Positions 49,835 through 52,117 of a stretch of DNA of 64,000 bases are shown here, in pieces. The stretch spans positions 1-64,000 of the forward strand of contig BEHV01000006.1 of assembly GCA_002898315.1 (NCBI GenBank). Reading direction: 5' to 3'. Under the pieces are notes generated by a model, which was not told the origin of the DNA, ran no database searches, and saw only the letters and a list, made by a program, of their open reading frames with translations. Origin of the DNA: a bacterium HR19. Its GTDB lineage: Bacteria > Calescibacteriota > Calescibacteriia > Calescibacteriales > Calescibacteriaceae. Within the stretch, counting starts at the first letter, position 1, and every line of letters begins with the position of its first letter. The position numbers were made by a program, and so were the translations under genes.

Positions 49835-50719
49835 ATGATTTTTGGAAACCTATTTTTCAAAACCAAAGAGCAAAAAAATGGAAAAATTGAAAAAGAAAAA
49901 TCCTTTCAAACAAAATTGAAAGAAGACGAAAAAATTAGTAAAATAATATCAGGAGAAAAAAGTATGCAGGAGTTTGAACAAAAAGAGGTAACACTGTTTT
50001 ATGTAGAAGAACTACATAAAGAACAGGTGAGAGTTAAACACTTACAAGAACTCGCAAAGTATCAACTCCCAATAAAAGCAAAAATCCCCGGAGACGAAAG
50101 GTCATACTTTACAGTGATTGAAAAAGTCGTAAGCATAAAAGGAGAGTATGCAGTACTCGTAAAGGAATTTGAAAACCCAAAGTATAAAGAATCTCTAAAA
50201 CCTGGTACCGTTGTATCATTTGAGTATTCAGACACAGCCGGAAAATATTCGTTTGATGCACGGTATAAAGGCGTATACAAAACATCTCTTGTATTCTCAT
50301 TTCCACAAAAAATAGAGAGAAAAAGCGGAAGGTCAGCTTACAGAGTTAAAGTAGACCCCAACGAACCCATAGATGTCATAATTGAACTGAAAGATGGAAT
50401 AACCTTCCAAGGAAGAATATTTGACATAAACGAGTACGGAGCAGGTATTGATGTTGAAATCCCCAAAGATAAAGTAAAGATGCTTGAGCTTGTCAAATTG
50501 GCTTTCAGAGTCCCCACGAAAGAAGGGCAGAAAAAACATGAGTGGGCAATGGTATCTGCAAAAGGAGAAATAAGATTTATTGGCGACTCCGAACAAAAAA
50601 AAACAAGATTAGGAATACAATTCACAGAAATATCAGATGATGATAGAAAAAATATCAGAGAATACTGGCTTATGAGACAGAGACAAGAACTCCGAAGAAA
50701 ACTTGAATACGAATCGTAA
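49835..50719 (+). CDS. PilZ-domain protein with YcgR-like N-terminal domain
   Basis: The 294-residue protein has a Lys/Glu-rich N-terminal helix, a beta-rich YcgR-N-like domain (about 60-165) and a C-terminal PilZ domain starting near 166 with RKSGRSAYRVKV (the RxxxR arginine box) and DINEYGAGIDVE in the place of the D/NxSxxG motif. PilZ domains bind cyclic di-GMP and YcgR-type proteins slow the flagellar motor. Asn-Glu replaces the usual Ser in the second motif, which may change affinity. Strong Shine-Dalgarno. TPR-AIM24 gene downstream on the same strand. Confidence 0.78.
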   Translation: MIFGNLFFKTKEQKNGKIEKEKSFQTKLKEDEKISKIISGEKSMQEFEQKEVTLFYVEELHKEQVRVKHLQELAKYQLPIKAKIPGDERSYFTVIEKVVSIKGEYAVLVKEFENPKYKESLKPGTVVSFEYSDTAGKYSFDARYKGVYKTSLVFSFPQKIERKSGRSAYRVKVDPNEPIDVIIELKDGITFQGRIFDINEYGAGIDVEIPKDKVKMLELVKLAFRVPTKEGQKKHEWAMVSAKGEIRFIGDSEQKKTRLGIQFTEISDDDRKNIREYWLMRQRQELRRKLEYES

Positions 50720-50725
50720 TAAAGT

Positions 50726-50876
50726 CCAAGTGACTTCCTCCCATCAATGAATAGAGGGGCTTCCTGCTTCAGGATGGGAATTTCCTTCCCTTTATGGGTA
50801 TAAGTTCGGGACAGTCCATCCCTACCACCCTTCAGGCGGGTGAAACCCTTTAAAGCGTCCTTTTAAAGCAACTTGG
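50726..50876 (-). mobile_element. IS200/IS605-type right-end / omega-RNA-like remnant without transposase
   Basis: This stretch is markedly richer in G+C than its surroundings. Read on the minus strand it ends GCAGGAAGCCCCTC, a short loop, GGGAGG, then AAGTCAC, like the GGAAGCCCC-hairpin-GGGG-GTTCAC end of many TnpB elements that forms the 3' part of omega RNA. Upstream on that strand lie CACCCGCC..GGGTGG and CTTTAAAAGGACGCTTTAAAG segments. Inverted CCAAGT/ACTTGG bases at 50726-50731 and 50871-50876 may mark its limits. No TnpA or TnpB coding remains. It begins 7 nt after the PilZ stop codon. Confidence 0.55.
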
Positions 50877-50965
50877 TTATCGCTGCTCTTTTCGTATAAT
50901 ATTTATCCTAATCTTTTCATCAATCTCACAACTCATTGCGATTAAAATAATTATTAAACTTTCTT

Positions 50966-52117
50966 ATGATGGTTGAGGAAGTTAAAAAGATACAGGAACT
51001 TATAAAGAGCGGGAATTTAGACGATGCGATTGAGATAGCTGAAAAATCTTTCAAAAAAACAAAAGATGAGAGAATATACAACCTCTACGGTATAGCTCTT
51101 TTCAAAAAAGGGTACTTTGAAAAGGCGTCGGAGGTTTTCGGAGAACTCTACTCAAAGCATCCCGAAAATCTGAACCTGTTTTTAAACCTCGCAAGGTCTC
51201 TTCTTGAAGCAGGAAAAATAGAAGAAGCAGAAAGAACCCTTCGGGAAGGAGCTATGCTCTTTTATGAAAATGAAAAAGTCATGGAGCTACTGAACGAATG
51301 CGAAAAAAGGAAAAAAGAAAAAGAAGAAACAAAAAAAGCTGAACCAAAAGAAGAAATAAAAGAAGAAATTGAAGAAATGCCAAAAGAGGAAATTGAAGAG
51401 GTAAAAGAAGAGAAAAAAGCAGAACCTGAAACCATAGAAGAAATAGAAGAGAAAATTGAAGAAATAAAAGAAGAATTAGAAGGTCTCGCCGAAAAACCGC
51501 AAGAAAAAGAAATAGAGGAAAAAATCAAAGAGAAGTTCAGAGAAAGAGAAGATGAAGAGATCTACGAAATAGGGGAACTCAAAGATTACGGTCTTCTAAA
51601 AAGAGGAAGATTCCTTGATATATCTCTAAAAGGTGAGAGCGAAATAATTTTAAGAGAGACATTTATCATATTCATCTCTGGAAGCTACAAGATTTTGCCC
51701 CTGAAAAAAGTCAGGAACTGGAAAACCGAAAAAGATTTGTTCGGTGGGAAAAATCACAAATTCATAAAAATACGAGGAACAAACTGCGAAATAAGTGTAA
51801 ATGCAGAATATATATCTGGATTTGAACTCCAAGAAGAAGAAAGAGCTTTCATACTTGAACCATTCCTTGTTGGATTTGACCCGTCTTTCAAATACAACTC
51901 ACGAGAAGTGAACAAAAAGGTTGAAATTGTTGAACTTTCAGGTAAAGGGAAAATTTTTATCTTCACTCACGGGAAAAAAGCAGTTGTAAAATCGCTATCA
52001 GGGGATACAAAGGTGACAGCGTCAAATCTCATAGGGGCAATAGGAGATCTGAGAATATCATTTTCTCTTGATTCATTTGACATAAGAGGAACAGGCAAAG
52101 TTATTCTGCGAATATGA
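50966..52117 (+). CDS. TPR-AIM24 domain protein
   Basis: The 383-residue protein has two to three N-terminal TPRs (IKSGNLDDAIEIAEKSF, YGIALFKKGYFEKASEVFGELYSKHPENL, LEAGKIEEAERTLREGAML). An extremely Glu/Lys-rich linker (about 110-205) follows, then a beta-rich C-terminal domain of the AIM24 type (VEIVELSGKGKIFIFTHGKKAVV ... FSLDSFDIRGTGKVILRI). AIM24-like domains resemble tryptophan-RNA-attenuation-like beta prisms and their role in bacteria is unclear. It lacks a signal peptide. It follows the PilZ gene and the IS-like remnant; no Shine-Dalgarno. Confidence 0.8.
   Translation: MMVEEVKKIQELIKSGNLDDAIEIAEKSFKKTKDERIYNLYGIALFKKGYFEKASEVFGELYSKHPENLNLFLNLARSLLEAGKIEEAERTLREGAMLFYENEKVMELLNECEKRKKEKEETKKAEPKEEIKEEIEEMPKEEIEEVKEEKKAEPETIEEIEEKIEEIKEELEGLAEKPQEKEIEEKIKEKFREREDEEIYEIGELKDYGLLKRGRFLDISLKGESEIILRETFIIFISGSYKILPLKKVRNWKTEKDLFGGKNHKFIKIRGTNCEISVNAEYISGFELQEEERAFILEPFLVGFDPSFKYNSREVNKKVEIVELSGKGKIFIFTHGKKAVVKSLSGDTKVTASNLIGAIGDLRISFSLDSFDIRGTGKVILRI

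Follow-up and report, generated by a model that had tools for sequence, protein, structure and literature searches.

A probable short gene-less IS200/IS605-type element between the PilZ and TPR genes of bacterium HR19, and the wear of its TnpB-type right end

We found that about 180 bases between the genes for a PilZ-domain protein and a TPR protein of bacterium HR19 (genome G000) are very probably a short gene-less IS200/IS605-type palindrome-associated transposable element (PATE) inserted there, most likely moved in trans by TnpA, with a right-end scaffold that is decaying and most likely unused. The element carries both ends and no gene, filled and empty sites differ between two sister species, and its right end is homologous to ends linked to TnpB genes. 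It is a fresh example of an already known element type and shows no sign of retained function.

Results

Layout of the element

The features are listed below by their position in the window, that is, the whole stretch of 64,000 nucleotides that was analysed.

49835..50719, plus strand: host PilZ-domain gene (Pfam PF07238, E 4.6e-7), ending 10 bases before the element
50710..50729, minus strand: guide position, lying in host sequence beside the element and antisense to the final PilZ codons and the bases past the stop, from the sequence
50730..50908, minus strand: whole non-autonomous IS200/IS605-type element, from the alignment to a second copy (L002), the empty L002 site in the sister species G002 and the absence from the PilZ-TPR gap of G002
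50730..50855, minus strand: right end with an omega-RNA-like scaffold terminating at GTCAC, from covariance model R1
50737..50759, minus strand: right-end terminal hairpin CCCCTCTATTCATTGATGGGAGG
50759..50770, minus strand: conserved GAAGCAGGAAGC block of TnpB right ends, from the sequence and comparison with TnpB-linked ends
50777..50791, minus strand: hairpin GGGAA-GGAAA-TTCCC at the position of the model's variable stem, from the sequence
50808..50822, minus strand: hairpin GGGA-TGGACTG-TCCC, from comparison with TnpB-linked ends and the model
50867..50887, minus strand: palindrome near the left end, AGCAGC-GATAACCAA-GTTGCT, a stem around the loop GATAACNAA
50896..50923, minus strand: weak promoter-like site TTGATG-16-TATTAT, directed into the element, 9 of 12 consensus positions
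50906..50912, minus strand: ATTAGGA, candidate junction of target and left end, with TTTAG or TTTAC in related copies
50966..52117, plus strand: host TPR-protein gene (Pfam TPR families)

The sharp contrast in composition described by the sequence-only reading was borne out: G+C is 0.48 over 50730-50880 versus 0.15-0.30 in nearly all other gaps of the window, the remaining G+C-rich gaps being carriers of tRNA genes, and the window as a whole has a G+C of 0.37. That reading had placed the segment at 50726-50876. The element is real but somewhat longer, with its right end at 50730 and its left boundary in the region 50907-50912, the latter uncertain by about 5 bases, being drawn from the alignment to L002 and the L002 empty site and not from a clean empty site of the window copy. 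The statement that no transposase or nuclease ORF is left also held, as no ORF of at least 60 codons was found within the element or across 50720-50965.

Read on the minus strand, the right end runs from GAAGCAGGAAGC (50770-50759) through the terminal hairpin (50759-50737) to AAGTCAC, which ends at 50730. This is the layout from which an orphan TnpB-type right end, with a guide position that would be antisense to the last part of PilZ, had been proposed, and both points agree with our results. Palindromes stand near both ends of the element: on the right the terminal hairpin keeps 5 of its 7 model pairs, and on the left the arms AGCAGC and GTTGCT form an 8-pair stem in the window copy and L002 and a 4-pair stem in L119 and L124. 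Related copies start at TTTAGG (L161, L162, L124 and L163), TTTAC (L010) or TTTAG (L002); matched by itself, the ATTAGGA stretch was not significant.

Sister copies and empty sites

The second gene-less copy in the genome, L002, is identical to the window copy at 155 of 183 aligned positions (85%), end to end, and the two have both ends and the whole interior in common at unrelated loci. In G002 the L002 locus lacks the element, with flanks joined within a few bases, and the locus of the G002 copy L010 is empty in like manner in G000. The PilZ-TPR gap of G002, beside a TPR protein 91% identical to that of the window, looks like the empty site that was predicted (25 of 2000 shuffles were as good). 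The window element sought in this gap gave no match beyond chance (652 of 2000 shuffles score as well), and the candidate remnant was rejected; the gap, which the sequence-only reading had suggested comparing, is without the element. The L002 and L010 sites, plus this gap, make up an insertion and empty-site polymorphism between the two sister species. Mobility of the short form rests on few events, as only two copies have this short form with both ends. Which state, filled or empty, is the older we infer; the IS200/IS605 transposase can also excise its element precisely.

Another piece in the same genome, L003, consists of the left-end palindrome of the complete TnpA and TnpB element L121 of G014, the last TnpB codons (RDVNAVLNLLKEGL) and then a right end. 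Its left end matches L121 and L123, and its layout illustrates the origin of such pieces through internal deletion. In L010 (1296-1593, G002), a right end is joined to an N-terminal TnpB-like piece (IRIPQHFCIEGNKLKIPNLKEF); this is the copy whose site is empty in the genome of the window. The left end of the window copy has a modest, suggestive likeness to that of L124 (5 of 2000 shuffles). Two further comparisons were dropped: the left part GCGATAACCAAG, read as a piece of a TnpB gene (codons GDNQ), did not match L121 significantly (121 of 2000 shuffles), and neither did TTAGGATAAAT by itself match the left end of L003 (525 of 2000).

Homology of the right end to TnpB-linked ends

Model R1 was built from 16 aligned TnpB-linked right ends, including one from the resident TnpB gene and none from gene-less copies; their consensus fold has 26 pairs, of which 9 are changed on both sides. 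The covariance check proposed from the sequence gave a match at 50730-50855 on the minus strand with 36.8 bits (E 2.7e-9 over the 64 kb, 7.9e-8 over the whole genome), which stops exactly at GTCAC. Over the whole of G000 the model found four places, namely the TnpB gene end (135.6 bits), L002 (48.4), the window copy and L003 (25.9). G002 yielded one match, L010 (44.3 bits), and G004 a chance-level match only. The element sequence itself has three further matches within its own genome, and together with the R1 E-value these put the resemblance of the right end above chance.

In some stems of the window copy both sides depart from the TnpB-linked consensus. Where the window has GGGA-TGGACTG-TCCC, many TnpB-linked ends have CCCG-TGGACTG-CGGG, the stem swapped and the loop kept. 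TnpB-linked ends of a different subtype (L059 and L074) have the swapped stem too, so the swap was inherited and does not point to selection after gene loss. TnpB relatives with a similar right end occur in many Aquificota, some other genomes, G014 and a Thermovirga plasmid; the TnpB gene on the latter was the single match in the plasmid collection, and the phage and viral collections gave none. Rfam had no match in the region of the element, and for the right ends of related loci it gave no match that reached threshold, so no curated family covers the element. Thermodynamic folding of the region (z −1.2 on the minus strand, −0.3 on the plus strand) is uninformative by itself.

TnpA and TnpB in the genome

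A search of the genome for a TnpB gene with such a 3' end, also put forward by the sequence-only reading, turned up a related end: one match (C5:91119-91163) lies directly behind a resident TnpB gene. This gene codes for a TnpB zinc-finger domain (60 bits), and its reading frame contains a single TAG at a position where relatives have Q. C5 is the only place in G000 with TnpB domains, and the 3' end of the gene is similar to the right end of the window copy but of a different subtype. In the assembly, which is 1.88 Mb and 82% complete, we found neither a Y1 transposase (TnpA) nor an intact TnpB. Either may be missing from the incomplete assembly, and the transposase driver may since have been lost.

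The resident TnpB gene (L006, C5 89891-91161) lies directly behind the stop codon of an opposite-strand gene that, read from its sequence, resembles one for a succinate dehydrogenase iron-sulphur subunit. As at PilZ, the guide of the TnpB gene would lie antisense to the last part of its neighbour.

Wear of the scaffold

The window copy keeps 17 of the 26 scaffold pairs and breaks 9, some of which may be met by other registers. L003 keeps 15, L010 20 and L002 22, the last indicating that decay is not found in every copy. Among complete relatives outside the genus, TnpB-linked or gene-less and not used for building R1, 23-24 pairs are kept in L073, L165, L121, L124, L161, L162, L123, L122, L059 and L112, and 21 in L074; the more distant L156-L160 align poorly to R1 and were left out. 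The promoter-like site is co-linear with the TATAAT box of gene-less relatives, and 1.5 such sites are expected in the region by chance, so the match is no better than chance. From its sequence, the window copy is probably no longer a working guide RNA.

Discussion

The insertion is best explained by a short element lacking tnpA and tnpB, with a palindrome at its left end and a right end of the TnpB type, on both ends of which a Y1 transposase (TnpA) most likely acted in trans by the single-strand mechanism of the family. Because the right end of a TnpB element doubles as the end of its guide RNA, that of the window copy can still be read as an omega-RNA scaffold; its pairing is decaying, and it is therefore most likely not used any more. 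An insertion past the PilZ stop codon would be harmless, and the element presumably has no present function.

It is unlikely that a full TnpA/TnpB element landed at this site and had its genes removed there by internal deletion, without ever moving as a short form. L003, with its TnpB tail, and L010, with its N-terminal TnpB-like piece, do look decayed in place, but the window copy agrees with L002 in both ends and in the whole interior at unrelated loci, and two independent deletions with the same ends are improbable. The three origins offered by the sequence-only reading included a short non-autonomous element, which the two shared ends of L002 and the sister-species empty site favor, and a guide RNA retained for a TnpB elsewhere, which found no support. 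Such a stand-alone minus-strand omega-RNA, loaded by a TnpB from elsewhere and aimed at the PilZ end or the empty insertion site, is highly improbable. The covariance model recognises the scaffold, and a weak promoter-like site lies in the left end, co-linear with the TATAAT box of gene-less relatives; however, 9 of 26 model pairs are broken, the promoter match is at chance level, and the one TnpB gene detected is interrupted by a stop codon and followed by a right end of a different subtype. The 82%-complete genome yielded neither TnpA nor an intact TnpB, which also makes a retained guide RNA unlikely.

As a gene-less PATE, the window element has known counterparts. The PATEs of Haloquadratum walsbyi were reported to derive from IS605-type elements that lost their core (PMC3119063), and in a PATE-like element of Halanaerobium hydrogeniformans a left-end hairpin is joined to the final 58 bases of tnpB and to a right end (PMC7290912), which is the layout of L003. 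Like these (PMC3119063, PMC7290912), the window element is short and transposase-free, with near-terminal palindromes, a right end shared with IS605-type elements and strain-specific insertions; for its left end the likeness to L124 is suggestive. Unlike them, it has another host and a very low copy number in the genus, and a covariance model served to test whether its right end matches an omega-RNA scaffold. It resembles the TnpB right ends and omega-RNAs of IS200/IS605 elements (PMC10278001, PMC8612924) in the GAAGCRGGAAGC block, the terminal hairpin, the GTCAC end and the guide position in the host flank, and differs from them in having no attached TnpB ORF and in its broken consensus pairs.

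G014 holds three gene-less IS605-type elements that are 99-100% identical (L124:528-857, L161:446-761 and L162:432-747). They have ends common to the G014 element L121, a TATAAT box, a GATAACCAA hairpin, an intact omega-RNA scaffold and a conserved structured RNA core (GGTCTTTGAACAAGTGAATAGGCC...AGTAGACGGCC...GGGGACTGG). The core recurs in other gene-less elements of G014 and G399 (L156-L160) whose right end is otherwise different (..GTAGTTCAC); there it gave only a weak Rfam match (sot0042, 34.5 bits, threshold 88). In its fold over seven sequences, 6 pairs are changed on both sides. From these sequences one might conceive of guide-RNA-only transposons: IS605-type elements without genes that keep a promoter and a whole omega-RNA scaffold of their own and would depend on TnpA and TnpB supplied in trans. 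The window copy would then be a worn member and L124, L161 and L162 living ones; we regard this as quite unlikely. The G014 elements are more interesting than the window copy and are worth a separate study.

The window element shows the spread and wear of TnpB-type guide-RNA ends without their genes, and the two sister species provide a clean set of sites with and without an insertion. With the G014 relatives one could test whether a guide RNA by itself is enough for an element to live on.
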